Below the pieces are notes generated by a model, which saw only the letters and a program-made list of their open reading frames with translations, had not been told where the DNA came from and ran no database searches. A stretch of 64,000 bases of DNA, from positions 124,001-188,000 of the forward strand of contig NZ_CANMSJ010000002.1 of the NCBI RefSeq assembly GCF_947500605.1, read 5' to 3'. Position 1 is the stretch's first letter. Every line of letters starts with the position of its first letter. This DNA comes from an uncultured Lacinutrix sp. (GTDB taxonomy: Bacteria > Bacteroidota > Bacteroidia > Flavobacteriales > Flavobacteriaceae). Shown piece after piece: positions 12,082 to 51,200 of this stretch. Made by a program: the position numbers and the translations under genes.

Positions 12082-12163
12082 GTTATTTTTTTAAGTTTTT
12101 AAAAGTACTTGATTTTATTATTTTTATAATAGTATTATTGTTAAATTTTTATTGATTATCCCG

Positions 12164-13504: not shown

Positions 13505-13585
13505 ATTAAGATATTAAGTGGATGCAAGATATAAATTTCAATGTTAAATTAAGGTTTCCTAATTACAAAAAGACAACTTCTTTGA

Positions 13586-13662
13586 TAACATTAAACTAAC
13601 GTTTTGATGAAAAAGGTTTAACCTGTAGTTAACCTTGACTTTACATGTTGATGGTTTCTTTG
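13586..13662 (+). promoter_or_regulatory. 11-bp-phased repeat array and -7 box: putative Pho-type promoter of the TonB receptor
   Basis: Heptads occur at exact 11-bp spacing: TAACATT 13586, TAACGTT 13597, a degenerate unit at 13608, TAACCTG 13619, TAACCTT 13630 and TTACATG 13641. A 7-bp gap and a -7-like box, TTTCTTTG, follow at 13655-13662. Heptads with 4-bp spacers are the layout of PhoB boxes. The box lies downstream of the alternative ATG at 13645, which supports the start codon at 13684. Confidence 0.55.
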
Positions 13663-13683
13663 CAGCAGAAATTAAACTATAAA

Positions 13684-16509
13684 ATGAAACAATTTTTACT
13701 TACCATCACCTTACTAACATCATTACTTACTTTTTCCCAGAACAGTGCTTCAATTTCAGGAAAAGTATTAGACCAAGAGTTTAACAACGAACCGCTACCT
13801 TTTGCAAACGTTTTAATTAAAGGAACTGATAAAGGAACGTCTTCAGATTTTGATGGACTTTATAAAATTGAAAATTTAGACGCAGGTTCTTATATTATTG
13901 AATTTAGTTTTATTGGTTACGAAACACAAAACATCCCTTTTCAAGTAAAAACTAACGAAAGTAAAGTTTTAGACATTACTTTAAAAGCAAGTGCTGCTGC
14001 TCTAGACGAGGTTGTATTACAAACCACTACAAAACGTGAAAGTGAAACCGCTTTACTTTTAGACCAAAAGAAAGCAGTAGACATTAAACAAAGTATTGGA
14101 GCAGACGAATTATCTAGAAAAGGTGTTAGCGATGCTGCTGGTGCAGTTGCTAAAATCTCTGGTGTATCTAAACAAGAAGGATCAAGTAATGTTTATGTAC
14201 GTGGCCTTGGTGACAGATACTTAAACACTACTATGAATGGCCTATCATTGCCATCTAACGATGTTAATAAAAAGAACATCGACTTAAATTTATTTTCTTC
14301 AGACGTTATACAAAACGTATCTATAAGCAAAGCATACTCTTCTAGATTCTATGGCGATTTTTCTGCGGGAAACATAGATATAACTTCAAAAGAACATAAA
14401 GGTAATTTATCTTTTAATGTATCGACTGGCTCTGGCTTTAACACAAACGCAATAGATAAAAACTTTGTAAGAAGCGAAGGCACTGGATATTTTGGTTACT
14501 ATGGTAGATACGAGCATAATCCTTTTGCTATTATTTTATCTCATGGTATCGATCCAGAAAATGTAAGCTCACCTATAAACATTAACTACGGAGCATCTAT
14601 AGGCAACACGTTTGAGTTTAATGAAGAGTCTCGTTTAAGTGTTTTTGCTACTGCTTCTTTCGAAAACAATTACGAGTACAGATTTGGTAAAGCTGTAGAT
14701 TTTTCGACTGTAGAAAAAAAGCGTTTTGATGCAGCCGAAGAATACGAATATAGCACAACGACAACGGCTATGGCAAATTTAAACTATAGAATAAATAGTG
14801 ATAATAGTTTAAAATTCAACTCTGTTTTTATTAATAGCTCTTCAGACGAAGTTGGTTATTACGGTATTGATGGTAAAGGAAAAAACAGAGATGCAATTCT
14901 TAACACAGACGAAGGTTTTTACCAAATGAATGTACAATTCGATCAAACTAGAATGTTTGTAAACCAATTATTAGGAAATCATAAATCTGGAAAATACGAA
15001 TTAGATTGGGGATTCGGATACAATAAGGTATACGCAAACCAACCAGATAGAAAACGTATAAGTTTAGAAAACTATCACCTTGCTTTTGATAATGATCCTA
15101 CTACAAACCCAAGTTTTTATAGCAATGTAGATTTCGATAATCAACGTTATTTTCAAAACATTGAAGACGATGAGTACAATAGCAAACTTAACTTAGCCTA
15201 CGAAGCTAATGAGAACCTGAAATTAAATTTTGGTTACAACGGAAGATACAAAACAAGACAATTTGATAACATCCGTTATGGTTACGACATCCAAGATAAT
15301 GGCTATGCAGTAACAGATGTAAATAATTTTGATAGCTTCTTTACCTTATCAAACATTAGTTTTGATAGCAACACAACAGGATACGATACTTCAGTAATAA
15401 ACGGAATTCCTGTAAGTACAACAGATCCAAACCAAACTTTAGGAAACACTAACTTACCTGGTTTACCAGAAAACACTTACTCTGGTAAATTAAGTATTGC
15501 TGCTGGTTATGCAGATGCTGAAATTAAAGCTGGCGAAAAATGGCTATTTGTTCCTGGTGTTAGATTAGAGTCTTTCGACCAGTCTATTAAATACGATGTT
15601 ATTAATTTAGGTAATCAAGGAAACAGCGAGCGCTCGTTTAAAGAGACTTTTATTCTTCCTACTTTAAATGTAAAATATGCTTTAAACGAAGATCAAAACC
15701 TACGTTTCTCTGCAAGTCAAACAGTTTCTGTTCCAGAATTTAAAGAAGTTGCTCCTTTTGTATACGAAGATGTATCTACAAGAATTGGTGGTAACCCAGA
15801 TGTTTTAGGGTATTCTAAAATTTTAAATGTCGATTTAAAATACGAATGGTTCTTTAGCAGAAGTGAAATCTTCTCTGTAGGTGCTTTTACGAAACAAATT
15901 AACGATCCAATTAACTTAGTTGTAGTTGGTGATGCCACTGGAACACAACGTTATGTTAGAACTGGAGAAAAAGCTAACGTATATGGTGTTGAAGTAGAAT
16001 TAAGAAAAAACATTTTAGTAGATAACGAAGACAACACAAGCTTATCTTTTGGTATTAATGCTACTTACATGAAAACTAAGCAAGATTTATATCCAACAAT
16101 AGATGAAACTTTCGATTTAGCTTTCAATAAAACTGAAGACGAATTACAAGGTGCTTCTCCATTAATATTAAATGCAGACATAAGCTACTCGCCAACTTTT
16201 AAAAACTACAAACCAATAGCTAACCTAGTATTCTCTTATTTCTCTGACAGAATTGATGCTTTAGGATCTGGAGATTTAGGAAACATTGTAGAAAAAGGTG
16301 TTCCTACTTTAGATTTTATTTGGAAAAACACCATAAACAAAGATTTTGAAATCAACTTTAGTGCTAAAAACATATTAGATCCTTCTATACAATATGTAAG
16401 AGAAGATGCCAGAGCTGGTGACATATTTGTGACTTCGGCAAACGGAAAAGGTATTACAGATTACAAACGTGGATTAAACATAAACCTTCAACTTAAATAT
16501 AAATTTTAA
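13684..16509 (+). CDS. TonB-dependent outer-membrane receptor with CarboxypepD_reg-like domain
   Basis: Outer-membrane active transporter, 941 residues from the ATG at 13684. Signal peptide (about 1-18, ending in TFSQN), a carboxypeptidase-regulatory-like beta-sandwich (about 20-105), a plug domain with VYVRGLGDRYLNTTMNG, then a 22-strand-type barrel ending in the aromatic LQLKYKF terminus. I reject the ATG at 13645 because the probable promoter box lies inside it. The beta-helix lipoprotein 38 bp downstream is probably in the same operon. The Pho-like repeat array and phosphate genes nearby suggest uptake of a phosphorus compound; the substrate itself cannot be read from the sequence. Confidence 0.92.
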   Translation: MKQFLLTITLLTSLLTFSQNSASISGKVLDQEFNNEPLPFANVLIKGTDKGTSSDFDGLYKIENLDAGSYIIEFSFIGYETQNIPFQVKTNESKVLDITLKASAAALDEVVLQTTTKRESETALLLDQKKAVDIKQSIGADELSRKGVSDAAGAVAKISGVSKQEGSSNVYVRGLGDRYLNTTMNGLSLPSNDVNKKNIDLNLFSSDVIQNVSISKAYSSRFYGDFSAGNIDITSKEHKGNLSFNVSTGSGFNTNAIDKNFVRSEGTGYFGYYGRYEHNPFAIILSHGIDPENVSSPININYGASIGNTFEFNEESRLSVFATASFENNYEYRFGKAVDFSTVEKKRFDAAEEYEYSTTTTAMANLNYRINSDNSLKFNSVFINSSSDEVGYYGIDGKGKNRDAILNTDEGFYQMNVQFDQTRMFVNQLLGNHKSGKYELDWGFGYNKVYANQPDRKRISLENYHLAFDNDPTTNPSFYSNVDFDNQRYFQNIEDDEYNSKLNLAYEANENLKLNFGYNGRYKTRQFDNIRYGYDIQDNGYAVTDVNNFDSFFTLSNISFDSNTTGYDTSVINGIPVSTTDPNQTLGNTNLPGLPENTYSGKLSIAAGYADAEIKAGEKWLFVPGVRLESFDQSIKYDVINLGNQGNSERSFKETFILPTLNVKYALNEDQNLRFSASQTVSVPEFKEVAPFVYEDVSTRIGGNPDVLGYSKILNVDLKYEWFFSRSEIFSVGAFTKQINDPINLVVVGDATGTQRYVRTGEKANVYGVEVELRKNILVDNEDNTSLSFGINATYMKTKQDLYPTIDETFDLAFNKTEDELQGASPLILNADISYSPTFKNYKPIANLVFSYFSDRIDALGSGDLGNIVEKGVPTLDFIWKNTINKDFEINFSAKNILDPSIQYVREDARAGDIFVTSANGKGITDYKRGLNINLQLKYKF

Positions 16510-16547
16510 CTACAACTCTTAATTAAAAACAAATTAAAAAAAACACG

Positions 16548-17714
16548 ATGAAAAAACAACTAATTTTAGGCTTAGCAATATTAGCTTCGGTATTTTCTTG
16601 CACAACTGATGATACTTCTGACATTGTAATAAACTCTACAACAAATAACACTACTGGTGGTGGAACTGAAACTGATCCATCAACAATTTTCTTATCTGGT
16701 ACTTATACTGAAGATTTAACACTTGACGCTAACAACACATACAAAATCAATGGTTCTTTAATTATGGCAAGCGGAACAACATTAACTATTCCTCCTTGTA
16801 TGACTATTGAAGCTTTATCTTCTGGTGCAGATGTTTATGTTGCCATTTCTCAAGGTGCTAAAATTATAGCAAACGGCACAGCAAGTTGTCCAATTGTATT
16901 TACTTCAGATTCATCTAATCCATTAGCTGGAGATTGGGGAGGATTAATTTTATTAGGAAAAGCGCCAATAAACTCTGTAACAGGAACAGCTACTGCAACT
17001 TCAGAAATTGCTAGTTTACCTTACGGTGGAAATACTGCAAATGATAATTCTGGTTCTTTAAGCTATGTAAGAGTTGAATATTCTGGTGGTGCAGCAGATG
17101 GACAATCTGAAAACAACGGATTTTCATTCTACGGTGTAGGAAATGGTACAACTGTAAACCACATTCAAGCTATCGAAGGAAAAGATGATGGTATTGAGTT
17201 TTTTGGAGGTACAGTAAATGCTAGTTATATCTCTGTTGTAAATGCTGAAGATGACTCGGTAGATTGGACAGAAGGTTTTTCTGGAACATTAACAGATGTT
17301 TACATTTCTAATAGAGCTACAGACGATAAAGCAATTGAAGCAGATGGTTACAATACAGACTTTAGTAATGCTACCGGTATTTTCTCTAAGCCAACATTAA
17401 ACAATGTAACTATTGTTGGTGAAGGTTCTGCAAATTCTTCGGAAGCGGTAAGATTAAGAGCAGGTACTCAAGGTATCTTTTCTAACATTCATATTACTGG
17501 TTACGCTGAAGGTTTTGATTTAGATGATTTAGATACAGGAAATGGTGTAGTAAGCGACGATTTACAAGTTACTGGAGTTACTTTTGTTGATGTTACATTA
17601 AACATGAAAAACGATACAACTGTTACTTTTACAATTGCAGATTTTTACACAAATGAAGGTACTGCAACTGGAACAGATTATGCTACTTGGGGAGCAAACT
17701 GGACTGTTCAATAA
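16548..17714 (+). CDS. Outer-membrane-anchored beta-helix lipoprotein, partner of the TonB receptor
   Basis: A 388-residue lipoprotein with a lipobox (FSC, Cys18) and a Thr/Asn/Gly-rich linker (about 20-45). The rest has the short repeating strands and turns of a right-handed parallel beta-helix (LTIPPCMTIEA, SLSYVRVEYSGG, VNHIQAIEGKDDG, LNNVTIVGEG). It follows the receptor by 38 bp and is followed by a strong terminator, so the two form a transcription unit. Such receptor-lipoprotein pairs often bind substrate at the surface, but no named family is recognised and the ligand is unknown. Confidence 0.85.
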   Translation: MKKQLILGLAILASVFSCTTDDTSDIVINSTTNNTTGGGTETDPSTIFLSGTYTEDLTLDANNTYKINGSLIMASGTTLTIPPCMTIEALSSGADVYVAISQGAKIIANGTASCPIVFTSDSSNPLAGDWGGLILLGKAPINSVTGTATATSEIASLPYGGNTANDNSGSLSYVRVEYSGGAADGQSENNGFSFYGVGNGTTVNHIQAIEGKDDGIEFFGGTVNASYISVVNAEDDSVDWTEGFSGTLTDVYISNRATDDKAIEADGYNTDFSNATGIFSKPTLNNVTIVGEGSANSSEAVRLRAGTQGIFSNIHITGYAEGFDLDDLDTGNGVVSDDLQVTGVTFVDVTLNMKNDTTVTFTIADFYTNEGTATGTDYATWGANWTVQ

Positions 17715-27312: not shown

Positions 27313-27393
27313 ATTGAAGGTATTGCCTATTCGTTTTATTATTTTTCGACCGAACTGCTTTAAATTAAACAGCTTTTAAAGTTACGAAGATTT

Positions 27394-27521
27394 GCGTTAG
27401 TGGTAGAAACGGCATCCTTTTTTTTGTTGCATATATGCAAAAAAAAGATATAGTGGATAACACGACCTTTTGCGATACTGCAAGGTTCTATAGACCTTGT
27501 GGTATCGCAAAAGGTAACGCC
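27394..27521 (+). repeat. Structured intergenic repeat, copy A (long)
   Basis: Begins GCGTTAG and ends GGTAACGCC; the ends can pair. It shares blocks with copy B (34321-34399, opposite strand): GCGTTAG, GAAACGGCATC, a T-run/A-run hairpin, AGATATAGTG and CGACCTTT. Between the last blocks copy A carries an extra long hairpin (27465-27515; arms ACCTTTTGCGATAC and GTATCGCAAAAGGT, then CAAGGT/ACCTTG). It lies just past the mgtE stop codon. Confidence 0.7.
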
Positions 27522-34320: not shown

Positions 34321-34399
34321 GGCGTTACCTAAAGGTCGGGCTGTACACTATATCTTTTTTAAGAAAAATAAAAAAAGATGCCGTTTCCATCCCTAACGC
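34321..34399 (-). repeat. Structured intergenic repeat, copy B (short)
   Basis: On the minus strand it reads GCGTTAGGGATGGAAACGGC, then ATC with a T run, an A run with GAT, TATAGTG, GACCTTT and GGTAACGCC. It shares all blocks with copy A (27394-27521), but the last hairpin is nearly absent. It lies between the serS start and the HTTM gene's stop. Confidence 0.7.
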
Positions 34400-34466
34400 G
34401 AAATTATAACTCTTGTTTTAAAGTGGTAAAAATAGTAAGATTTTGTTAGCCAAAAAATAAGTATTG

Positions 34467-41241: not shown

Positions 41242-41323
41242 GCTCAAATGGCGGAATTGGTAGACGCGTTGGATTCAAAATCCAATTTCTTCGGAAGTGT
41301 GGGTTCGATTCCCACTTTGAGTA
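41242..41323 (+). tRNA. tRNA-Leu (anticodon CAA)
   Basis: An 82-nt gene folds as a type II tRNA. Acceptor stem GCTCAAA pairs with TTTGAGT (G-U at position 1-72), discriminator A; the anticodon loop TTCAAAA carries CAA for the TTG leucine codon between TTGGA and TCCAA arms; a short variable arm and the T arm GTGGG TTCGATT CCCAC follow. No CCA is encoded. Its 3' end is the attachment site of the integrated element that begins here. Confidence 0.96.
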
Positions 41324-41324
41324 C
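41312..41324 (+). repeat. attL core
   Basis: CCACTTTGAGTAC covers the last 12 bases of the tRNA-Leu gene plus one base. It is identical to 51145-51157. Confidence 0.85.
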
Positions 41325-41332
41325 TAAGTATT

Positions 41333-41371
41333 ACCGTAATTAGTTGTTTTTCAATTGATTACGGTTTTTTT
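41333..41371 (+). terminator. Element-borne terminator for tRNA-Leu
   Basis: A 14-bp stem with two G-U pairs (ACCGTAATTAGTTG / CAATTGATTACGGT), a T5 loop and a following T run, 10 bp past the tRNA. It belongs to the inserted element and now ends the tRNA transcript. Confidence 0.85.
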
Positions 41372-41380
41372 ACGCTTTAT

Positions 41381-41399
41381 TTTGCCGAGAATTTGCCGA
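41381..41399 (+). repeat. Left-end paired TTTGCCGA sites (putative integrase arm-type sites)
   Basis: TTTGCCGA at 41381-41388 and 41392-41399 form direct repeats with an 11-bp period. The same pair with the same period and orientation occurs at the right end (50987-51005). Confidence 0.65.
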
Positions 41400-42015
41400 C
41401 AAGAAGTAAAAAACAAACCAAAAAACAAGCCTAAAACAGCTTAATAAAACCCGAAAAAACACCTTTAATCAATGAATATTTACAGTGTTTTTAACTTCTT
41501 TAAAGCAAAACCTACACTTAAAGTAATGCATAAACGATTCTTTTCAACTCACAATCGTTGATAAATAGATTTTTTACAAAAAATTCTATTTTATAGTTTT
41601 AGCAACAGAATACCAACAACAAACCAACAATAAAAAAAAAGAGCGCATACTACTATAAAAAATCGTTAACCATTATTAATACACTAGTCACAAGCACTAT
41701 ACTGCACAACCAACAATAACCAACACTGTTGCTATTAACTACTGTTGTTTACTGTTGTTTACTGTTGGTTCTTGATAAATTTACAACTTCAAAGCATTAC
41801 GAGATGAACACATTATTTATTGTTAAATGCAAAGGAAATAATTCTTAAATGAGGTAAACCGTAATACAAAACCGATTTATATTTATATTTTTAAGGATTA
41901 AATAAACCAACAGCTATTAATTTCACTTACTAAAAACCATTGTTTTATACTAATTTCCAGATAAAAAATATTAATTATCTATTAAAGTTTTGAAATTATT
42001 AAAAACACTTAATCT
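41400..42015. other. Non-coding left region of the element with iteron-like repeats (candidate replication origin)
   Basis: About 615 bp without a convincing gene. It holds two groups of short repeats: CCAACAACAAA CCAACAATAAA at 41613-41634 (11-bp period), and at 41710-41770 CCAACAATAA, CCAACACTGTT, then ACTGTTG at 41725, 41741, 41751 and 41761 (the last three in a 10-bp tandem). The CAACA and TGTTG forms are inverted copies of one another. Such arrays next to a helicase/primase gene set suggest a replication origin or a regulator-binding region. Confidence 0.45.
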
Positions 42016-43071
42016 ATGGACATTTTTAAATACTTATACCACTATCACACAACAGAGCATACACGTATTAATCCTTTAGGTAAAGAAATTAGAGGAATTA
42101 CACCCGTAATAAATGATACTTATTTTGAATATAATTTCGAAAACGCCTTGGACTTTCTCGATGTATTTGATGTAAATAGATCAGAGCTATATAAGGACGA
42201 TGGCACTGACATTAGGACAAGTTATATATATAGAGGCCACAAACATCACTACTGGGATCTATTACCAAGTTTTTTTAGACAAAACCAAGATTATAAAGCA
42301 GCTTACTTAAGTGGCAATGGTCATTCTTCAGGAGAAGTTGACAACTTTTTACATTTCATTAAAGGTATTGATAGTATTGGTTATAATGTTAGCGACTATT
42401 CTTTTGAATTATTACAATTAATTAAAACCAGAGACAACGCGTCGTCTTCAAATTTCGACTTATCAAGTATGCTTTTTCATTTCCCTAACAAAAAACAATT
42501 AGAAGAATTAGCACTGGCACAACACTTTGGAGTAGAAACAAGATTATTGGATTTTACTGAAAACCCATTGACTGCTTTATTTTTTGCCAGTGAAAGCATT
42601 TACCCATATGATTTCCATTCAAAAAATGAAAATGACAAAATAGGAGTTTGGGTAATACCCAAACTATTAATAGACGCCATAAAACACGAAAGATTTCTCC
42701 ACTATGTAGATGTTAAGAAGTACCAAAATAAATATATTTCTGCTCAAAAAGGAGTTTTTTTACATTATTTCCCATCCGTTAAAGAAGCTAGTAATAAATC
42801 CATAAACCTAGAGACAGACAACCTATTAGATATAACTTATAAACTAGACCAATTACTAACTTCAAAATTCAAAAACGAATCACTTAACAAGTTGATAAAG
42901 GAACATATTGGAAAACCTATGCTTTTTACTTTGCCACACAATGAATTATTCCCTATAGCCTCCAGATTAAATCAATTAAACATTAATTGGACAACATTAA
43001 TGCCTAGTCTTGACGGTGTAAAAAAAGAGGTAATACGACAAAACAACAAACCTTTCTCTAATATTATTTAA
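42016..43071 (+). CDS. FRG-domain protein (candidate defence effector)
   Basis: A 351-residue cytoplasmic protein. The FRG domain is plain: YIYRGHKHHYWDLLPSFFR at about 71-88 and the hallmark LAQHFGVETRLLDFTENPLTALFFA at about 167-191, followed by a GVWVIPK strand. FRG domains are frequent in mobile elements and defence islands and in predicted toxins; the biochemical activity is not established as far as I know. There is no toxin-antitoxin partner overlapping it. It is the first plus-strand gene of the element, 276 bp ahead of the DUF3800 gene. A -7-like AAGTTTTG lies near 41985. A role in phage defence is inference from family and location. Confidence 0.85.
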   Translation: MDIFKYLYHYHTTEHTRINPLGKEIRGITPVINDTYFEYNFENALDFLDVFDVNRSELYKDDGTDIRTSYIYRGHKHHYWDLLPSFFRQNQDYKAAYLSGNGHSSGEVDNFLHFIKGIDSIGYNVSDYSFELLQLIKTRDNASSSNFDLSSMLFHFPNKKQLEELALAQHFGVETRLLDFTENPLTALFFASESIYPYDFHSKNENDKIGVWVIPKLLIDAIKHERFLHYVDVKKYQNKYISAQKGVFLHYFPSVKEASNKSINLETDNLLDITYKLDQLLTSKFKNESLNKLIKEHIGKPMLFTLPHNELFPIASRLNQLNINWTTLMPSLDGVKKEVIRQNNKPFSNII

Positions 43072-43346
43072 GAAAGCAAAAATATTGAGATTTGCAAGAA
43101 GAAAAATCTGAACTAACTATAATCAAGAAGAGCCTAAGGATGCCTTAAATAAATTATAATAAATACAGGCAACAACTAACAAAGTCAATTATAGATTTAG
43201 ATCATATAAGAAGTCATAAAAGTCTTTCTTTCTGAATTTTAAATCCTAAAAAAGTTCACAATCTCACACAAAAAAATATTACATCAGATGAAGCTTAGAC
43301 TAGACTGGTTAAATAAGAATATTAATAATAGAAAACAGTTAATCCT

Positions 43347-44495
43347 ATGAGTGAAAAGGTTTTTATATATGGTGATGAGTTTGGCACAAGTCATTTAGAT
43401 ATTAATATTCAAGGTAATATTTCTCATTTTATCTATGCATCATTAATCATTCAAGAAAAGGATTTAAAACAAGCATATAAAATCAGAAAACATTTAAGTG
43501 ATAAATATTTCTCAGGAGGCAAGCTTAAGTCCAATTCTCGAGGCATGAAGGACAAGAATTTTGATAAAAGACTCGAAATACTCAGCTATATAGTCGATAA
43601 TTTAGATTTCAAAATAAATACTATTGTTGCCGATAAATCTCTAATAAAAAGCAAAGGTCTTGAGTTCAAAGAAGTATTTTACAAGTATTTTCAATCTATG
43701 CTAGTACATAATATTATTACAGAGTATGAAAGATTTGAAGTTTATGCTCATAGAATTATAAGTGATAGCTTTGCAAAAGAAATGTATATTTATTTAGACA
43801 ATAAGTTAAACACAAATACACTCTTTAGTAGTTATAAAATGGTTGATGACAAGGACGAGGTACTTGTTCAATTGTCGGATGTAATTGTTGGCTCTTTAGG
43901 GCGAGTTTTTACTCACTCACATTATCACAGTAGGTCAAATGAAATAATGGATATTTTGCATTTAAAAATGAATACACCTACCTTTTTTCCTTATAAAATT
44001 AACAATCATCTTAAGTCAAGTGCTGCCGATTTCAATGTGGATAATGATATAAACCAAATGGTAATCAATGATGTTGTTAACTATGTTGAAAACGATACAA
44101 ATAGCAAAGAGAAGAAGGATTTACTAAAGTATTTACTTTTTATGAACAAAGTTTCTCCTTTCAAAATGAATGAGATATACGAAATAGTATCAAAAATGAA
44201 TTTTCTACATAACAATATCACAAAAGACAATGTTAGGAGTATGATAAAAGATCTAAGATATGATGGTATATTAGTAATTAGTGCTTCAGGCAAAAGTGGC
44301 TACAAGCTTGCTTGTAACGAAACAGATGTTGTTAATTATTTTAGTCACTATTTTAAATATGTAGAACCTATGTTGGCTAAAATTGAAGTTGCTGATAAAA
44401 AAATCAAAGAAAGTAAAGGCTCGGAATATTCTTTATTAGACAATCCGAAATTCAACCTATTAAAGCATCTTATGACTATTTATAATAAATATTAA
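43347..44495 (+). CDS. DUF3800 protein with C-terminal winged-helix-like region
   Basis: A 382-residue protein. The DUF3800 domain (about 1-215), predicted to have an RNase H-like fold, shows the acidic start FIYGDEFG (Asp10, Glu11) and the later QLSDVIVGSLGR (Asp178), the two carboxylate clusters expected of a metal-dependent nuclease. The extra 150 residues include NNITKDNVRSMIKDLRYDGIL and a SGKSGYKLA wing-like hairpin at about residues 290-325, suggesting a winged helix that could bind nucleic acid. DUF3800 genes are common in mobile elements. Nuclease activity is inferred, not shown. Confidence 0.82.
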   Translation: MSEKVFIYGDEFGTSHLDINIQGNISHFIYASLIIQEKDLKQAYKIRKHLSDKYFSGGKLKSNSRGMKDKNFDKRLEILSYIVDNLDFKINTIVADKSLIKSKGLEFKEVFYKYFQSMLVHNIITEYERFEVYAHRIISDSFAKEMYIYLDNKLNTNTLFSSYKMVDDKDEVLVQLSDVIVGSLGRVFTHSHYHSRSNEIMDILHLKMNTPTFFPYKINNHLKSSAADFNVDNDINQMVINDVVNYVENDTNSKEKKDLLKYLLFMNKVSPFKMNEIYEIVSKMNFLHNNITKDNVRSMIKDLRYDGILVISASGKSGYKLACNETDVVNYFSHYFKYVEPMLAKIEVADKKIKESKGSEYSLLDNPKFNLLKHLMTIYNKY

Positions 44496-44627
44496 CTAAT
44501 GTGCAAAAAAATAGTTGAAAACGTTTTATTCATGTGAACTTTAGATAACACATAAACAAAACAGACCAACAGAGACAGATTGAATATCCCATTAATTAAC
44601 AATAAAATATTTAGAAATTAGTTAAGA

Positions 44628-45536
44628 ATGAATTTTATACCACCATTAGAAATAGCCTCAAAAATTATGACTTTAATTGAGGAGTCCAAAAAAGAGCTCA
44701 TTTTGGTTTCCCCATATGTGGAGTTGTCAAAATGGAATAAAATGAGAAAATGTATTGATCGAGCAATAAATAGAGGAGTAAAAATCACCTTTGTTGCACG
44801 AAAAAATGCCAAGCAGAATTTAAGCTTTTTACAACGTCCAGAAATTAATTTAGTTCTAGTTAACGACTTACATGCAAAACTATATCTAAATGATGATTAT
44901 GCGATTGTTACATCTCAAAATATTGTATATTATTCAGATATCAACTCCATAGATATAGCTTACAAAACCACCAACACGGAGCAAAGACTTGAGTTGGTTG
45001 ATTTTATTAATAAGTATGTCGTTAATATAGAAGAACAGCAAAAGGAGGCTGCTAAAATAGTAGGTGAACCTAAAAAAACTATTAAAATAATTGACAAAAC
45101 AATTGATTATGATGTGAAATTTTTAACTGCAAGTGAATTAGATAAATTGTCAGATTATTTTAACACCACATATAGTGATGTGAAATTTGTTACAACTAAG
45201 GACTATGTTTTTAGTAAGCACTTAGTCTCATTTGCTGATATTATGATTGCTTCTGTTTATACGGTTAAAACCCGAAAAGAGGACAATGATAATATTGAAT
45301 ACTTTATTAAGGAGATTTCCACATTTAATTTAAACCTACAAAATGATATTTCTGTTAAACTAAACACAGATCACAACAAATTTAATTATATCTATTTCGC
45401 ACCTAAAGTTAGCTATGAAATTGAAGGCTTAATTAATGATTTTGAGTTAATAACTAACGCTATTTTGGAGTCAAAATACAAAAAGAAGCGAGATATAAGA
45501 GTAAATGTCAATGGGTGTAAAGTTATTTATAAATGA
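44628..45536 (+). CDS. Phospholipase D-like (single HKD) protein
   Basis: A 302-residue protein. The N-terminal ~130 residues form one PLD-type module: ELILVSPYVELSKW, GVKITFVARK and the HxKx4D catalytic motif with His82, Lys84 and Asp89 (LHAKLYLNDD), then an SQNIVYYSDINSIDIAY stretch. A single HKD motif implies dimerisation, as in Nuc/BfiI-type nucleases. The remaining ~170 residues are of no recognised family and may bind a target. The family includes nucleases and restriction-type enzymes, which suits a defence role, but phosphodiester activity on another substrate cannot be excluded. Confidence 0.83.
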   Translation: MNFIPPLEIASKIMTLIEESKKELILVSPYVELSKWNKMRKCIDRAINRGVKITFVARKNAKQNLSFLQRPEINLVLVNDLHAKLYLNDDYAIVTSQNIVYYSDINSIDIAYKTTNTEQRLELVDFINKYVVNIEEQQKEAAKIVGEPKKTIKIIDKTIDYDVKFLTASELDKLSDYFNTTYSDVKFVTTKDYVFSKHLVSFADIMIASVYTVKTRKEDNDNIEYFIKEISTFNLNLQNDISVKLNTDHNKFNYIYFAPKVSYEIEGLINDFELITNAILESKYKKKRDIRVNVNGCKVIYK

Positions 45537-45575
45537 TGTTGAGGTTAGCTTGTTCTCATATAATAGAAATAAAGC

Positions 45576-45704
45576 TTAATCCTTGTTCCAATATTTTGTG
45601 AACTCATCTTGTTCTGCTCCTAGTGGGAATAATACATGATACCAAAGACAATTAAACATATATTTGATTATTCTAACCCATCGAGGTAATTTTGATTTTG
45701 TCAT
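45576..45704 (-). CDS. Possible 42-residue small protein of the element
   Basis: ATG at 45704 and TAA at 45576, 45 bp past the stop of the TOPRIM gene on the same strand. The product starts MTKSKLPRWVRIIKYMF and continues NCLWYHVLFPLGAEQ, an aromatic-rich, amphipathic stretch with a polar tail. It fills an otherwise empty gap between convergent genes. No family is recognised. It could be a chance ORF. Confidence 0.4.
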   Translation of the reverse strand: MTKSKLPRWVRIIKYMFNCLWYHVLFPLGAEQDEFTKYWNKD

Positions 45705-45748
45705 AATAATTAAGTTCTTAGAGATTAGAATATAATGATTTAGAGACT

Positions 45749-46702
45749 CTACTCTATTATTGTTCTAAAAATATCTTCCAGATCACAGTTGTAATCTCCA
45801 TCTGTTTTTAGTTGCTCGTCGGTTCTACCATTCGTCATGTCCCAAATGGAAGCTTTTACTCCTATTCTTGTTAATTCAATAATTTTATTACTAATTATTT
45901 CAACATCTTTTTCGCTCATATCTGGAATAATTAGAACCGTATGACCTATTAAGCAATTATATTTTGCTTCCGTTAAGCCATTACGTCCAGAATAAGACAG
46001 CCAAACAAATTCAGGCAATAAAATAGCACCAATTATTGCTGTTTTCTCGCTTTCAACTAAAACCAATTTATCTACTCCTTTTTTATTGTCAATTATTAAA
46101 TGCTCTCCAAATAAACATGAAAAATACCCATCGCTGTTTTTATATGGAGCATTAAATTTATTTGTTCTTTTACCATTTTGGTTATAATATGCAACTTTAC
46201 CTTTTTGAACTAGATTTTGCTTATTAATATTCCAAAAAACAGCACCTCCATCTGTTGTTGTTCCTAAAGCGTAGTCTTTAAATACTTCGTCAACATTGCT
46301 ATTATTATAAGTATTTCTAATATATTTCATTAAATTATTTTCTGGAGTGTTTAAATAGTAGCTCCATATTGTTTTTTCTTCAATATACTTTTGTTTAATT
46401 ACTGTTGTTGGTTTGTTGTTGGCTTGTTGTTGCCTTGTTGTTGGTGCTTTATGAGTTGTATCAAATGTGATAGGTTCGTACCTATTAGTATTATCGTTCC
46501 ACATAAATTCTTTATTGCTTTCATCTAAATATATTGCAGGTGGCAGCGTTGCTTTACCGCAAGAATGACAATACCCATAGTTTTTAGATGAATTTTTGAA
46601 AGTAATAAATTTACCGTTTTTATTTACTTTATTGCAACAAGGCGTTATTAGTTTGTAATTTCTTTTGGTGTTAAAACTGTGTTTTGTTTCTTGCTTTTTC
46701 AT
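45749..46702 (-). CDS. Zinc-ribbon/TOPRIM primase-like protein of the element
   Basis: A 317-residue protein of the kind found in Bacteroidota mobile elements (DUF6371-like). A CHC2-like zinc ribbon comes first (CC pair at 22-23, CHSC near 45-48), then a Thr/Gln/Asn-rich linker (about 85-105), and a TOPRIM-like fold with LVLVESEKTAI around residues 210-220 and a later VLIIPDMSEKD acidic pair. It probably supplies primase function to the helicase gene directly upstream. The linker's DNA is an 11-bp tandem repeat (see 46401-46444). Confidence 0.75.
   Translation of the reverse strand: MKKQETKHSFNTKRNYKLITPCCNKVNKNGKFITFKNSSKNYGYCHSCGKATLPPAIYLDESNKEFMWNDNTNRYEPITFDTTHKAPTTRQQQANNKPTTVIKQKYIEEKTIWSYYLNTPENNLMKYIRNTYNNSNVDEVFKDYALGTTTDGGAVFWNINKQNLVQKGKVAYYNQNGKRTNKFNAPYKNSDGYFSCLFGEHLIIDNKKGVDKLVLVESEKTAIIGAILLPEFVWLSYSGRNGLTEAKYNCLIGHTVLIIPDMSEKDVEIISNKIIELTRIGVKASIWDMTNGRTDEQLKTDGDYNCDLEDIFRTIIE
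46401..46444. repeat. 11-bp tandem repeat inside the TOPRIM gene
   Basis: On the minus strand, CAACAACAAGG, CAACAACAAGC, CAACAACAAAC and CAACAACAG follow one another every 11 bp. Since 11 is not a multiple of 3, the repeat does not give a repeated peptide. It matches the CCAACAACAAA units in the left non-coding region. Confidence 0.6.
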
Positions 46703-46895
46703 TGCATTTTGTAAAATTTACTCTTTTGCTTAATTCATTGGTTACTTTCATTTGCCAACAACAAAGTAACAACGGAGTTGGTTTGTTGTTGTTAATTAGT
46801 TAGCATATAATATTTTCTTATTTATACATGCATTTCCTACATAAGCTACATAGGCAAAAAATAAAAATGTATGTTATGTGTGAAATGTAGATAGA
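46703..46895. other. Intergenic region with inverted CCAACAACAAA units
   Basis: Holds CCAACAACAAA at 46755-46765 and its inverse TTTGTTGTTG at 46781-46790, and then (46830-46850) a partial inverted repeat CCTACATAAGCTACATAGG. It lies between the helicase stop and the TOPRIM start. No gene is seen in it. Confidence 0.45.
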
Positions 46896-48407
46896 TTAAA
46901 AAACTTTTTTTTCTACATAAACACTAATACCGTAACTTTTTCTAATTACTTCAAAATTGTTTTTCTTTAATCTTGTAGAAAATGTTTTTTTAGAACAACA
47001 ACGCATTCCAGAATCAATACAATACACTTTGTATTCGTTGTATAAGTTTTTTAGTGTGTAATTTTCTGTTGTAGATACAATGTAATTTTCATCTTCCATA
47101 AAGGTTAGAACACTATCAGAATATTTTTGATAGTTTAGAACTTCTTTTTCTGCAATTTCGCTACTCGTAAAATCATTCTGTTTTAATAATCTTTCTAGAC
47201 CGTTTAGCATCCAGTTAAAAACACCTGAAAGTTCACTTTTAATAATTTTATTTGATAATTTTTTATCCTGATCGGCTTCTGGAATAGTAACATTAAATGG
47301 TATTATAATAAATCTTCTAAAAAAGGCATTTGTGTTCTCTACTTCTTTTGGTAATTCATTACAATTAAATAAGAGTTTAGCGTATTCAGTAATTACCCTA
47401 TCTTGTTTGTATAAAACTTGTACGGGTAGTGGTTCTCCAGAAACCATTGATTTAAAAATATCACTTTTTAATTTACCATCTATTTCACTAGCATAGTTTA
47501 AAAGCTTGTATTCTATATTAATTCTAGATTTACTATTATCTTGAGTTAAGGAACTTAATGTATAATTGGTTGTGTTTTCGCTTCCCAATAGCGCCATTAC
47601 AATCTCGTAAAAAACACTTTTCCCATTTGCTCCACTACCATAAAGCAAAAGACATTTTTCAAGTTTTAAAACATCATTTTTTATAAAAATTGAACCTAAA
47701 TATTCTGCAAGTATGTCTTGTAGTTCTTTTTCTGGTAATACTTTATTAAGAAAACTTTGAAATAATGGAGATTTAGCGTTTTCATTATAACTGAAGGGTA
47801 ATTGATACTTAATAAAGTCTTCTTTTTTAAATTTTCTTAAAGCAGTCATGTTTTCAGAAACTTCAAATGTTCCGTTTTTCAAATTAATCAATGTCGTTCC
47901 TTTTGAAATACTCATGCTTTTTAGTCCTCCCGCAGATAAAAATTGTTTGTACAGCTCCTCTTTAAATTTATAGTGTTTCGATTCATATTTATCAATGCCC
48001 AGTTTTAAAGCAGCAAGCCCTAAAAAGTCTGTAAAACTCTCATCTGTAACACTTTCCCAAAACTCTGAATTGTAGATGTAAATATTACTATTGCTCCTAC
48101 ATAGACTGAATCCATTCTTATTAGCAATGTTTATTATTTCCTCGATAGTGGTTACTAAATAATGTTTCTTCTGAAGCTTGTCATCTTCTTTGGGGAGATT
48201 AACTTTTTTTCTAAAATTTATAGGCTGAATAAGTTTTATAATTTCATTCAATAAATTCTCTGCATCAAGACTAATTCTATTACTTTTTAGGAAGTTTTTT
48301 TTAATATTAGCTCTAATGTTTTCGATACTGCTAGTTTCTGTATCTTTACCTTGATTTTTGGCGAAATCATTGGTGCTGTTTTTAGCACCTTTTTTATTGT
48401 CTTTCAT
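46896..48407 (-). CDS. P4/D5-type primase-helicase (SF3 helicase) of the element
   Basis: A 503-residue replicative helicase. After a charged N-terminus (about 1-50) and a D5_N-type region (about 120-245), the SF3 helicase domain shows Walker A LLYGSGANGKSVFYE near residues 250-265, Walker B-type NYASEID and the sensor FNCNELP about 70 residues on. The C-terminus ends in a winged-helix-like D5-Pox region. I chose the ATG at 48407; the TTG at 48413 is the alternative. Such helicases drive autonomous replication of P4-like satellites and plasmids. It follows the HTH gene by 11 bp. Confidence 0.85.
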   Translation of the reverse strand: MKDNKKGAKNSTNDFAKNQGKDTETSSIENIRANIKKNFLKSNRISLDAENLLNEIIKLIQPINFRKKVNLPKEDDKLQKKHYLVTTIEEIINIANKNGFSLCRSNSNIYIYNSEFWESVTDESFTDFLGLAALKLGIDKYESKHYKFKEELYKQFLSAGGLKSMSISKGTTLINLKNGTFEVSENMTALRKFKKEDFIKYQLPFSYNENAKSPLFQSFLNKVLPEKELQDILAEYLGSIFIKNDVLKLEKCLLLYGSGANGKSVFYEIVMALLGSENTTNYTLSSLTQDNSKSRINIEYKLLNYASEIDGKLKSDIFKSMVSGEPLPVQVLYKQDRVITEYAKLLFNCNELPKEVENTNAFFRRFIIIPFNVTIPEADQDKKLSNKIIKSELSGVFNWMLNGLERLLKQNDFTSSEIAEKEVLNYQKYSDSVLTFMEDENYIVSTTENYTLKNLYNEYKVYCIDSGMRCCSKKTFSTRLKKNNFEVIRKSYGISVYVEKKVF

Positions 48408-48418
48408 ATTCAAGGAAA

Positions 48419-48703
48419 TTAATCGAATTGGTTCATTTTCTTAAGAGCCGATAAAACCTCAGATTTTTTATATCGAACCTTAGTACCTATTCTAAATGCA
48501 GGTAGAACATTGTTTTTACTGTATTTCCATAAGGTTACTAAGGAAATTGATAGCATTTGGGCTGTTTCCTCTCTCGTTAGTAGTTTATCATCTTCTGTGC
48601 TGTCTTTTTTGAAGTTTAAAAGAAGCTCTTTAACACCTCCTAAAATTTCGTTTTTGAAATCTTCGTTGTTGGTGTTTTCAATTTGTAGAATTTTTTTAAT
48701 CAT
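48419..48703 (-). CDS. Excisionase-type helix-turn-helix protein
   Basis: A 94-residue DNA-binding protein. The C-terminal half carries a MerR-like HTH: LLTREETAQMLSISLVTLWKYSKNNVLPAFRIGTKVRYKKSEV (about 46-85, with the wing residues RIGTKVRY), as in the excisionase/Xis-like family common in Bacteroidota elements. The N-terminal half is a charged helix. A 6-bp-armed inverted repeat lies directly upstream. It probably controls the helicase operon, excision, or both. Confidence 0.8.
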   Translation of the reverse strand: MIKKILQIENTNNEDFKNEILGGVKELLLNFKKDSTEDDKLLTREETAQMLSISLVTLWKYSKNNVLPAFRIGTKVRYKKSEVLSALKKMNQFD

Positions 48704-48705
48704 TG

Positions 48706-48729
48706 CCTTGTTGTTTAATTGTTACAAGG
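48706..48729. promoter_or_regulatory. Inverted repeat upstream of the HTH gene
   Basis: CCTTGT (48706-48711) and ACAAGG (48724-48729) flank a 12-bp centre, 2 bp before the HTH start codon. A likely operator for the HTH protein. Confidence 0.4.
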
Positions 48730-48775
48730 GCAAAACTATTTTACTTTACTAAATTTAATAAATTTGGGTAACCCA

Positions 48776-49726
48776 TTAAATACCCAAATTACTTAAAAGT
48801 TGATTTATTTTATCTTGTGATTTTATAGCTACTTCTGATTTTTCAGATGGTTTTTTATCTATTTCAGAAATATAATCTCTGATATTTCTTTCACTAGCAT
48901 TAATTAAAGGATTAAAGAGTTTCTCTTTGTCCGTTGGCTTTAAATTTTCCCATATATCAGATTTAATATCCCTTATTGCCTGTATCAACAAAACCTTTTC
49001 TCTTATGGTTAAAGGCTTACGTGCTTTTGAAGTCTGTTTTTCTGGAACATTCTGTTGTAATTTTCTAATTTGATCTTCATAGAAACGATCAAGATTAACT
49101 ATTACAAAAAAACTGTACCATAATTTCAATATATCATTTTTTACTGAAAACATATTTTCAGAATCATCAACAAAATAATCCAAACCATCATCAAAAACAT
49201 ACTCTTCATTTAAATACTTATTAATCGTTTTAGGAGAAAAAATTATATTGTTTTTAACAGTATTTTTCCAATTATAATTCTTGTTTAAATGACCACCAGT
49301 GTATTCCTTATAAGAAAAATGATCTTTCACTTTTAACAAGTTTTTCTTTCGTTTTTTTAAACAATATTTTATTTTTTTATCATTCTCAAAATGAGCATTT
49401 AAATAGTGTTTTTCAATTTCTATCTCATTTTCAACACCCCATTCAACTGATAAATTGTTATTTTTTTCCATTATTGGATATTCTAAAACTTCAACTTCTC
49501 TTTTAAGAATATTATAAATATCTTCAAAAATGATATCATTAAATTTATATTCTTTTCTATTGAAGTAAATGCTTCTACCAAATACTTTGTTTTCAAAATC
49601 ATAGTCAAAATCTTCAATTAAAAGTTGAATTACATTAGCTTTTAATAAAGCCTCAACTAACTCATTATTTAAAATAGTTATGTCTATACCATTCATTATA
49701 CCTCTAAACATTGTGATATCTTTCAT
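48776..49726 (-). CDS. Conserved-type unknown protein coupled to the integrase
   Basis: A 316-residue protein. The chosen ATG at 49726 overlaps the integrase stop in an ATGA arrangement, which indicates translational coupling; a TTG at 49744 is the alternative. It has no signal peptide or membrane helix. Lysine-rich middle (KYCLKKRKKNLLKVK) and a C-terminal helical segment (LTIREKVLLIQAIRDI, INASERNIRDYISEID) resembling those that end several Bacteroidota mobile-element proteins. I do not recognise a named family. A role in integration/excision or replication control is suggested only by position. Confidence 0.75.
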   Translation of the reverse strand: MKDITMFRGIMNGIDITILNNELVEALLKANVIQLLIEDFDYDFENKVFGRSIYFNRKEYKFNDIIFEDIYNILKREVEVLEYPIMEKNNNLSVEWGVENEIEIEKHYLNAHFENDKKIKYCLKKRKKNLLKVKDHFSYKEYTGGHLNKNYNWKNTVKNNIIFSPKTINKYLNEEYVFDDGLDYFVDDSENMFSVKNDILKLWYSFFVIVNLDRFYEDQIRKLQQNVPEKQTSKARKPLTIREKVLLIQAIRDIKSDIWENLKPTDKEKLFNPLINASERNIRDYISEIDKKPSEKSEVAIKSQDKINQLLSNLGI

Positions 49727-50982
49727 TCGTACTCTTTTTTCCAATTATTGTTTATAACCTCTATGTGTTGTTCTTGAGTTGCTTTAACGTATTGCGAAAA
49801 CTGTTTTTCAGATTTATGTCCAGTTGCAGCCATAATTAGCCTTATTTGCACACCATCTAAATATAAATTAGTAGCCATGCTTCTTCTCCCTGTATGACTG
49901 GTTATAAGCTCCCACTTTTCGTAAATACCTTCCTTTTTTCGTTTTGTTTTTTCGTCTATTTTAGAGCCAAAAACCCTTTTTTTAATCCCCACATCTTTAA
50001 CCACATCCTTTATGTATTTATTAAATTTTTGATCTGAAATAGTTTTTGGCAATTCTCCAGATCGTTTAGCTAAAATTTTAGTAATATTTTCATGTATTGG
50101 GATATGTAAATTTTGATTGGTCTTAGTAGTGGTAATATTAATCGATTTCTCTAAAAAGTTTTCTTTTGATAATTTAGAAATATCTGAAACTCTTAATCCA
50201 GTTCTTAGAGCTATTATAAATAAATCCCTAACGTTATTTAGTTTTTCATTGTCGCTAAAATCGTGTTTCAATATTTTCTCTATTTCTATGTTACTTAGAT
50301 AAACATCATGAGTTTCATTTTTAGGCGCACTAAATCTCTTGTGCTTGTAAATTGGATTTATTGGTAAATTTTCAAATTCAATATTTTTACAAAATGTTTT
50401 AATCCTAGAGATCAAGACACCTGTAGAATTATTATTTAAATTTTCAACCGTTTTACAATAGTGAATAAAATCACGATGAAAGTCTAAATTAATATCCTCA
50501 TGTCTATATCTTAACTTTTGATGTTTTTCAAATGCTTCAATCTTATTTTCAGCAGATTTGTAATTTTTAATCGTATTTTTTGATAGAGGAGATCCGTTAT
50601 GCAATTGTTTATGCAACTGCTTTACATATTGTTTTATCCAGTCTAAAAAATAAGTTTTATGAGTTTCCTCAATAGTAGCTCTATTAAAAAAGGAATTAAC
50701 AGCCTCTTTAAGCCACTTATCGTTTATTGAAGTGTTACTATTATAATCTCTATTATATCTATCAATAATATACAACTCTAGCTTTTCTAGCTTGTTATTA
50801 ATAAAATCAACGTTGTTTGTTGTTGCTGTAATTTTTAAGCGTTGTTTAGCTTTAGACCAATCACTAAATACCACAGAAAAACCTGTTGTAGTTTTTTGAT
50901 CTATACGTTTACTATCCCAAAAACGGACATAAATACTTGAGTGCTTTTTCTTACCTTTGATTATAAAGTATTTAACGTTCAT
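49723..50982 (-). CDS. Tyrosine-type site-specific integrase of the element
   Basis: A 419-residue tyrosine recombinase. An N-terminal arm-binding region (1-100), a SAM-like core-binding domain (about 105-205), then the catalytic domain with Arg in RTGLRVSDI (about 262), the HTGRR motif with His and Arg (about 362), GHKSEKQFSQYVK with His and the nucleophilic Tyr (about 391-400). It inserts the element at tRNA-Leu. The gene starts 5 bp from the paired TTTGCCGA sites, so binding there may repress its own expression. Confidence 0.94.
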   Translation of the reverse strand: MNVKYFIIKGKKKHSSIYVRFWDSKRIDQKTTTGFSVVFSDWSKAKQRLKITATTNNVDFINNKLEKLELYIIDRYNRDYNSNTSINDKWLKEAVNSFFNRATIEETHKTYFLDWIKQYVKQLHKQLHNGSPLSKNTIKNYKSAENKIEAFEKHQKLRYRHEDINLDFHRDFIHYCKTVENLNNNSTGVLISRIKTFCKNIEFENLPINPIYKHKRFSAPKNETHDVYLSNIEIEKILKHDFSDNEKLNNVRDLFIIALRTGLRVSDISKLSKENFLEKSINITTTKTNQNLHIPIHENITKILAKRSGELPKTISDQKFNKYIKDVVKDVGIKKRVFGSKIDEKTKRKKEGIYEKWELITSHTGRRSMATNLYLDGVQIRLIMAATGHKSEKQFSQYVKATQEQHIEVINNNWKKEYE

Positions 50983-50986
50983 ATAT

Positions 50987-51005
50987 TTTGCCGATATTTT
51001 GCCGA
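50987..51005 (+). repeat. Right-end paired TTTGCCGA sites (putative integrase arm-type sites)
   Basis: TTTGCCGA at 50987-50994 and 50998-51005 repeat every 11 bp, as in the left-end pair. They abut the integrase start codon and lie 139 bp inside attR. Confidence 0.65.
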
Positions 51006-51144
51006 AAACAGTTAATTATTGTTAATTTATCTTAATCAAAATTAACTAAATTATTTTAATAATTAGCTTTAAAGCATTAAAAACAAAGGGATAGAGCCTA
51101 TTTTAGTGATTTAACTGAAAAGCACAAATTAAGGCAAGCTACTT

Positions 51145-51157
51145 CCACTTTGAGTAC
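51145..51157 (+). repeat. attR core
   Basis: CCACTTTGAGTAC is identical to the tRNA-Leu 3' end at 41312-41324 and marks the right junction of the element. Confidence 0.85.
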
Positions 51158-51160
51158 CAC

Positions 51161-51200
51161 AGAAAAGCATCAACTTAAAAGTTGATGCTTTTCTCTTTTT
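51161..51200 (+). terminator. Former terminator of tRNA-Leu, displaced past the element
   Basis: A 16-bp perfect stem (AGAAAAGCATCAACTT / AAGTTGATGCTTTTCT) and T run, 4 bp after attR. Before insertion it would have lain directly behind the tRNA. Confidence 0.85.

Follow-up and report, generated by a model that had tools for sequence, protein, structure and literature searches.

An intact integrative element in tRNA-Leu(CAA) of an uncultured Lacinutrix sp. and its probable place in a Bacteroidota satellite lineage

Genes and insertion site of the element

We analysed a 64,000-nucleotide stretch of DNA from an uncultured Lacinutrix sp. (Flavobacteriaceae; contig NZ_CANMSJ010000002.1, positions 124,001 to 188,000; hereafter the window, whose own numbering is used throughout), in which a real, intact mobile element is seated in a tRNA-Leu(CAA) gene. 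The tRNA gene (41242..41324, plus strand; ARAGORN; Rfam RF00005, 62.1 bits) is the integration target: its last 13 bases, CCACTTTGAGTAC, form the left attachment core, attL (41312..41324, plus strand), and return as the attR core at 51145..51157 on the same strand. There is no third copy in the whole 3,497,241-base assembly, and allowing up to two mismatches yields one extra match in the 64-kb window, which is within chance. The initial annotation of this DNA had proposed that the repeat brackets an element, and the finding of exactly two copies in the assembly bears this out.

The core genes of the element all lie on the minus strand. Outermost is a tyrosine integrase of 419 aa with an HTGRR motif (49723..50982; PF00589, E=8e-16; PF13102, E=5.4e-10). 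Its stop codon overlaps, as ATGA, the start of a 316-aa open reading frame (ORF), here called gene X (48776..49726), to which no function was assigned; the ORF listing begins at an upstream TTG. The C-terminal ~80 aa of gene X are 32-33% like the gene that intervenes between the integrase and helix-turn-helix (HTH) genes of two islands, L159 and L160, and the helicase match is absent from the DNA stretches examined around both. A single-sequence AlphaFold model of gene X has a mean predicted local distance difference test (pLDDT) score of 34.3. There follow a 94-aa excisionase/AlpA-like HTH_17 protein (48419..48703; PF12728, E=7.2e-10; PHROG 66 'excisionase and transcriptional regulator', E=2.7e-7), a 505-aa helicase of D5/superfamily 3 type with the Walker A motif GSGANGKS (46896..48413; TIGR01613, E=8.4e-50; PF19263 and PF08706), and a 317-aa DUF6371 protein of zinc/TOPRIM type (45749..46702; PF19898, E=1.4e-35), in which V-E-(S)-E-K-T-A around residues 216-222 is invariant or almost so in a 21-row alignment. 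The helicase scores 169.3 bits against TIGR01613 ('primase, P4 family'; cut-off 108.7) and the DUF6371 protein is separate, which upholds the earlier suggestion that P4-alpha-like functions are split between two proteins.

Three cargo genes fill a bay of 4.4 kb, all on the plus strand and thus opposite to the core, as first annotated. They encode an FRG-domain protein of 351 aa with a YRG motif (42016..43071; PF08867, E=1.7e-17; PADLOC PDC-S15, E=2.3e-27), a DUF3800 protein of 382 aa with GDEFG near its N terminus (43347..44495; PF12686, E=9.6e-9), and a 302-aa protein resembling phospholipase D (PLD)/HKD nucleases (44628..45536; PHROG 9329, E=5.6e-7; PADLOC MkoB, E=3.5e-9, and DrmC, E=6.8e-6). 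The PLD-like protein has no Pfam match and is thus a weaker call than the other cargo; it contains one HxKxxxxD motif (HAKLYLND), and its single-sequence AlphaFold model has a mean pLDDT of 38.7. The integrase, HTH_17, D5/DUF5906 helicase, DUF6371, FRG and DUF3800 assignments all pass Pfam cut-offs. Sequence searches of the Protein Data Bank with the three cargo proteins returned nothing below E=0.05. As the initial annotation had stated, virion, relaxase and conjugation families are without a match among the eight element proteins (Pfam, PHROG, PADLOC and NCBIfam); terminase, portal, capsid and tail genes were likewise not found in the element with Pfam and PHROG.

A likely role of the trio in anti-phage defence is suggested by the families involved. 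Frg proteins belong to the ADP-ribosyltransferase superfamily and have been proposed as NAD-linked immune effectors (PMC9503650, in excerpt), and DUF3800 has a modelled RNase-H fold and is found together with Cas12a2 (PMC10910872, in excerpt). We inspected the neighbourhoods of six DUF3800 relatives: with Pfam, L154 adjoins a restriction gene of Eco57I type and L162 one for a type III subunit; by eye, the gene next to L153 matches that next to L154, no restriction gene was seen beside L155 and L161, and L156 was left unclassified. The best PLD relative (L157) adjoins a GmrSD gene, and the best FRG relative (L158) sits among ordinary-looking genes. Across 248 genomes, our own included, DUF3800 matches occur in 10, PLD matches in 25 and FRG matches in 19. 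A conserved three-gene defence operon was considered and rejected, as the trio was not found together elsewhere in these genomes; in G204, which has both the best PLD and the best FRG relative, those two genes are ~292 kb apart.

Comparison with relatives shows that the element inserted precisely and that the tRNA was kept whole. In G005, the nearest relative examined (98% identity in HupE and 99% in Prs), the site is empty: the tRNA ends in the identical 13 bases, a terminator hairpin nearly matching the one now behind attR in the window follows directly, and hupE begins after a spacing of 77 bases. This uninterrupted site sets the size of the element at 9,833 bp. Empty sites, with tRNA and hupE adjacent, are present in seven of the 12 same-genus genomes; the core is identical to that of the window in five of these (G005, G006, G002, G012 and G010), and G004 and G009 have the variant core CCGCCTTGAGTAC. 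Among the remaining genomes, ordinary-looking genes stand between tRNA and hupE in G008, G011 and G001, and G003 and G007 are counted in neither group. A comparison of relatives for empty tRNA-Leu sites had been proposed in the initial annotation, which named as contrary evidence the same genes at this locus without the repeat, or element-free relatives lacking it; neither pattern was found. The element has a G+C content of 28.0%, against 31.2 and 31.3% in ~10 kb on each flank, and its core ORFs and attachment sites are intact. We also considered the tRNA-hupE interval as an integration hotspot, given larger gaps in G008, G011, G001, G025, G040 and G050. The idea was dropped because the gaps in the first five hold, by eye, ordinary-looking chromosomal genes; the gap in G050 is ~0.5 kb.

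The ends of the element carry further signals. An intrinsic terminator borne by the element (41333..41365, plus strand; 14-pair stem and T run) replaces that of the tRNA, whose native terminator, identified by comparison with G005 and a hairpin search, is now cut off from it at 51161..51194 (plus strand). Two pairs of TTTGCCGA lie inside the two ends of the element, one at 41381 and 41392 (41381..41399, plus strand) and one at 50987 and 50998 just upstream of the integrase gene (50987..51005, plus strand), with members 11 bp apart in each pair; the window holds three copies elsewhere in addition to these four. These paired sequences look like arm sites for the integrase or excisionase, as judged from their arrangement. 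An iteron-like stretch (41708..41770), comprising three copies of TACTGTTGTT (41740-41769, the third with one mismatch) and an 18-nt inverted repeat, is a candidate replication origin. A promoter scan gave 67 matches against 58.5 (standard deviation 7.7) in shuffles, barely above expectation. In summary, the genes and coordinates first listed were right as given, and gene X, the replacement terminator and the paired arm-type sites had been missed. Elsewhere in the window, two Flavo-1 RNAs (RF01705) lie above gathering score, at 27389-27471 (plus) and 34330-34404 (minus).

A family of tRNA-bounded elements

We searched 198 genomes with the window helicase and obtained matches in four, our own included; none of the 12 other same-genus genomes matched. 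An alignment of those four helicases, used as query, retrieved 48 loci in the GTDB collection, mostly from Flavobacteriaceae; Alistipes, Dysgonomonas and Algoriphagus are represented too, as are a small number of records that carry the label of another phylum. The same alignment found four loci in viral contigs, where the single helicase sequence had no match. The 57 loci collected represent 54 distinct ones (L037, L039 and L041 are copies of L063, L073 and L082), and in 32 of these the 3' end of a tRNA or transfer-messenger RNA (tmRNA) gene faces the helicase from the right. We designated as bounded those loci in which 13 bp or more of the tRNA end is repeated, which are 25 of the 32, window included. 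Left out were L079, with a 12-bp repeat that is not tRNA-like, and L067, L075, L086, L087, L095 and L101, which have no repeat. The bounded set includes close kin (L062/L063 and L080/L081).

In these 25 elements, repeats of 13-55 bp of the tRNA or tmRNA 3' end lie beyond the integrase, and the genes follow a common order: integrase, X, HTH, in some a winged HTH (wHTH), D5 helicase, mostly TOPRIM, cargo and tRNA. Integrase and helicase are present in all 25, TOPRIM in 24, HTH in 22, X (as two families) in 19 and the small wHTH in 18. In 24 of the 25 no long gene precedes the integrase, which was not a search criterion; that the tRNA faces the helicase was one. The targets are tRNA-Arg (9), Ala (5), Leu (3), Ser (3), tmRNA (3), Val (1) and Met (1), and sizes range from 6.5 to 12.9 kb with a median of 7.5 kb (7,495 bp). 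The core of the element is a recurrent Bacteroidota module. The initial annotation had asked for the same module with other cargo; blastp clustering groups no window cargo gene with any ORF of the 24 further bounded elements. Cargo on the opposite strand is not peculiar to the window, either, as 10 of the 24 TOPRIM-bearing elements (window included) have one or more opposite-strand ORFs of at least 70 aa in the cargo bay. The ATGA overlap of integrase and X is found in two of the 25, the window element and L100.

Paired arm-type 7-mers, searched for as pairs 8-25 bp apart within both terminal 300 bp, are present in seven of the 25, each with an 11-bp spacing at both ends and at roughly similar distances from the attachment cores; in L062/L063, one left-hand 7-mer pairs at 22 bp as well. 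The same search on shuffled sequences was positive in 0 or 1 of 200 per element. The seven are partly non-independent, as L062/L063 and L061/L064 have motifs in common.

We scanned the 89 non-core proteins of the other 24 elements and found no virion, relaxase or type IV secretion system family with Pfam (23 of 23 families shown). This negative rests on Pfam, because the PHROG result comprises the best 25 of 62 families, and Pfam is blind to the small terminase subunit (TerS) of L100. Two further recurrent proteins were also seen. A conserved ~195-aa protein (cluster c6) occurs in the cargo bay of nine of the 25, including L080 (12781-13365), and also in the circle L173; neither Pfam nor PHROG matches the protein of L080. 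A ~93-aa GRPKG..NKTT protein (weak DUF5681) occurs in five of the 25 (L082, 7444-7722; L077, L091, L093 and L094) and also in L109 (6701-6994). It may be a packaging factor, because its gene in L109 closely precedes an ORF that resembles a terminase. Perhaps L094 (Lutibacter) holds tandem elements, as the tRNA-Ala of the first element is directly followed by another integrase gene and another HTH gene (14518-17061).

Links to phages and competing explanations

The block of genes that makes up the core also occurs in phage contigs. The IMG/VR phage contig L106 has integrase, X, HTH, wHTH, helicase and TOPRIM in the family order, followed by portal (E=8.4e-57), head, TerS (3.5e-22), large terminase (TerL; 6.2e-102) and a virion/tail-type gene. 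Phage contig L107 has the same early block, with portal, head, TerS and TerL 90-96% identical to those of L106. L109, from a 22-kb contig, has a version of the block, its helicase split over two ORFs, followed by a large ORF that is terminase-like by eye without a Pfam match, and a head-gene match. DUF6371 proteins are frequent in IMG/VR, where 232 of 263 stretches matched; among the 80 loci kept, 11 encode a protein related to the large terminase of L106 or L109, and four have this helicase type. Two further contigs were noted on the side. L108 (1-11863 of a 54-kb contig) has an HTH protein 69% identical to that of the window, helicase and TOPRIM, then prophage-kind genes by eye. L057 (MT835758.1, 'Bacteriophage sp.', 19 kb, faeces) has integrase, X, HTH and helicase at 10476-14462 among neighbours that look bacterial-chromosomal by eye, and is probably an integrated element rather than a phage.

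Circular contigs without a full virion set form a second link. Circle L185 (6.8 kb; ends overlapping by 99 bp with one N) carries a TerS (E=9.8e-23) that shares 63% identity with its L106 counterpart, an integrase that shares 75% with the one in the integrated element L083, and an attP core that is that of tRNA-Arg elements. Circle L168 (IMGVR_UViG_3300024510_000176, 4.6 kb) encodes helicase, TOPRIM, a 195-aa protein and a TerS-like protein (E=6.2e-10) without an integrase, and is perhaps a plasmid-like satellite. Circle L216 (IMGVR_UViG_3300012942_000311, 8.7 kb) combines integrase, X, HTH, replication gene and TOPRIM with a head maturation protease, a major head protein and TerS; tail, portal and large terminase were not noticed among its ORFs, so that it looks like a capsid-forming satellite. 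End overlaps are exact in L168 (125 bp) and L216 (123 bp). Among integrated elements, L100 (tRNA-Ser; Sulfurimonas record) has a TerS-like protein (E=2.4e-7). Together, the phage contigs with the same block and the TerS-carrying circles support a phage-satellite lineage.

We favour, as the more probable reading, that the window element integrates site-specifically and belongs to a lineage of minimal phage satellites in Bacteroidota. As the junctions record, the integrase joins the 13-bp core to the 3' end of tRNA-Leu(CAA); the tRNA stays complete and gains a new terminator from the element. The HTH_17 protein, probably together with gene X, would switch the integrase to excision; in PICMI satellites of Vibrionaceae, the AlpA gene and the integrase-overlapping gene are needed for excision (PMC10803314, in excerpt). 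The D5 helicase and TOPRIM protein would copy the circle, with the iteron-like stretch close to attL as a possible starting point, and the circle would be packaged in particles of a helper phage that supplies terminase and capsid. The proposed helper packaging is the weak step for the window element, which has no TerS; PICMI offers a precedent for a small satellite that does without capsid-remodelling genes (PMC10803314, in excerpt). The plus-strand trio, in the usual cargo bay between TOPRIM and tRNA, probably protects the host, and hence the element, from other phages.

Several observations weigh against this reading. Neither TerS nor a capsid-size or other recognised hijack gene was found in the window element with Pfam, PHROG, PADLOC or NCBIfam, and the ~100-aa wHTH gene present in 18 of 25 is missing from it. 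No helper phage was found in its own genome, which has no HK97 capsid match (two marker families tried) and a single phrog_979 match that is a PhoH-type ATPase by eye. TerS was seen in one of the 25 bounded elements (L100, among the PHROG matches listed, Pfam being blind there), and L100 is the remotest in the helicase tree and is without a DUF6371 protein. In L185 and L216 another replication gene stands where the helicase would be, so that their kinship covers integrase, HTH and TOPRIM and goes no further. To fit the three phage rows in among bounded and unbounded elements, the helicase tree requires two label changes, a clustering hardly above chance (23 of 500 shuffles were equally low). 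The window helicase sits on a long branch (0.97) in a 19-row clade of bounded and unbounded elements (support 100/98), its smallest well-supported one, which has no phage-labelled row but includes the relaxase-bearing locus L066. Finally, phages could have acquired the module from plasmid-like elements.

L066 is central to the first alternative, that of a relaxase-less mobilizable island with its own excision and replication, moved by a resident integrative and conjugative element via an oriT-like sequence and descended from an NBU-type Bacteroides element. In L066 (6384-15928; Cellulophaga baltica), the integrase-X-HTH-helicase start is joined to MobC, a MobA/VirD2 relaxase and, by eye, a ParA-like gene, so that it looks like a mobilizable version of the module. 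NBU1 itself also resides in tRNA-Leu with a tyrosine integrase, an HTH factor and a primase, the same target and similar genes as in the window, which counts for this explanation. NBU1-type elements are integrative and mobilizable elements (IMEs), and although canonical IMEs bear a relaxase and none was recognised in the window element, IMEs without one exist (PMC5704250, in excerpt). On the other side, blastp (E<=0.01) links the L066 relaxase to no ORF from the rest of the 57 loci, no relaxase family appeared in the 89 non-core proteins of the 24 other elements, the TOPRIM protein of L066 is of a different type (Toprim_2), and it is TerS-like genes that accompany parts of the module in L100, L168, L185 and L216. 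We regard a mobilizable island as unlikely, while L066 keeps it alive; the satellite likeness put forward in the initial annotation thus gains a lineage tied to phages and TerS circles without displacing this rival altogether.

Rather doubtful, too, is a self-contained integrative replicon or degraded prophage, in which an L106-like early region that lost its late genes would spread by rare transformation or generalized transduction and be kept for its cargo. The same early block in phage contigs, the missing hijack gene and the long helicase branch would fit. Random decay is nevertheless unlikely because 25 bounded elements, some closely related, have this form at sizes of 6.5-12.9 kb, come from several helicase clades and have circular kin; moreover, the core ORFs and attachment sites of the window element are intact. 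A chance 13-bp match beside ordinary genes could appeal to the varying tRNA-hupE interval, with its ordinary-looking genes in G008, G011, G001, G040 and G025, and can be dismissed in view of the uninterrupted site between matching flanks in G005, the terminal integrase, the arm-site pairs at both ends (1 of 200 shuffles) and 24 analogues.

Beyond the satellite reading of the single element, we tentatively entertain, at slightly less than even chances, a Bacteroidota continuum built on one early block (integrase, X, HTH, wHTH, replicase and TOPRIM). It would run from full temperate phages through circles with head genes and TerS and TerS-only satellites to bare tRNA islands of 7 kb whose defence cargo is exchanged, and the module would have moved between phages and satellites more than once. 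In this scheme our element is one of the bare islands, its bay holding three defence genes; having no TerS, it would have to use the packaging signal of its helper.

Comparison with described elements and wider meaning

To our knowledge, described phage satellites come from Proteobacteria (Vibrio included) and Gram-positives, and no described phage-satellite family in Bacteroidota was found in the full text of open-licence papers. P4-like satellites integrate at tRNA-type sites and have a single alpha protein. The window element shares their P4-family helicase and differs in dividing the alpha function between two proteins; matches to the P4 genes for capsid and late-gene hijacking, psu, delta, sid and epsilon, were not obtained at E<=0.1 (Pfam, PHROG and NCBIfam). 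P4-like satellites of Enterobacteriaceae also have a bay with defence-type genes (PMC9122126, in excerpt).

In gene order the element is like PICMI, the phage-inducible chromosomal minimalist islands, which are induced and packaged by a virulent phage. Their description (PMC10803314, in excerpt) gives the order integrase, ATGA-overlapping gene (iolg), AlpA (PF12728) and DUF5906 primase, with direct repeats, a 6.1-kb prototype and no capsid-remodelling gene. The trio of integrase, HTH_17/AlpA (PF12728) and DUF5906 (PF19263) is complete in the window element. The differences are that PICMI integrates at fis, a hallmark according to its authors, and not at tRNA-Leu(CAA); that its primase model includes DUF3987, whereas the window helicase has D5_N and no DUF3987 match at E<=0.1; and that the window element has a separate DUF6371 protein and belongs to another phylum. 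The same description counts 135 PICMI-like matches among complete genomes, Vibrionaceae accounting for 67, and some kin of the window element may be among the 135.

PICI, including SaPI and capsid-forming PICI (cf-PICI), likewise combine integrase, regulator and replication module without structural or lytic genes (PMC6092414, in excerpt); the window element does so too if its HTH protein counts as the regulator. They typically measure 12-15 kb, against 9,833 bp here, and depend on a phage for induction and packaging. PICI attachment sites are described as never holding prophages; of the 12 same-genus relatives of the window, seven have an empty site and three (G008, G011 and G001) ordinary-looking genes. 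Some relatives carry TerS as well; the window element has none, and no stl-like repressor was recognised in it. Circle L216, a distant relative, resembles cf-PICIs in its protease, major head protein and TerS. A Flavobacteriales counterpart, the Riemerella anatipestifer 10K genomic island, is ~10 kb, lies at tRNA-Arg, has a tyrosine integrase and excises to a circle, with a 53-bp repeat (PMC6764341, in excerpt) in place of 13 bp. By the features tested, then, the window element works like PICMI and P4 satellites and is a member of neither; no described element with its exact gene set was found here either, as the initial annotation had held, though the core is recurrent.

Most likely, the element is a satellite of a Bacteroidota lineage that we did not find described in the open-licence literature. 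If so, a simple gene order would find such satellites across Flavobacteriaceae, the common early block would flag candidate helper phages, and the defined cargo bay beside the tRNA would be a place to seek new anti-phage genes.

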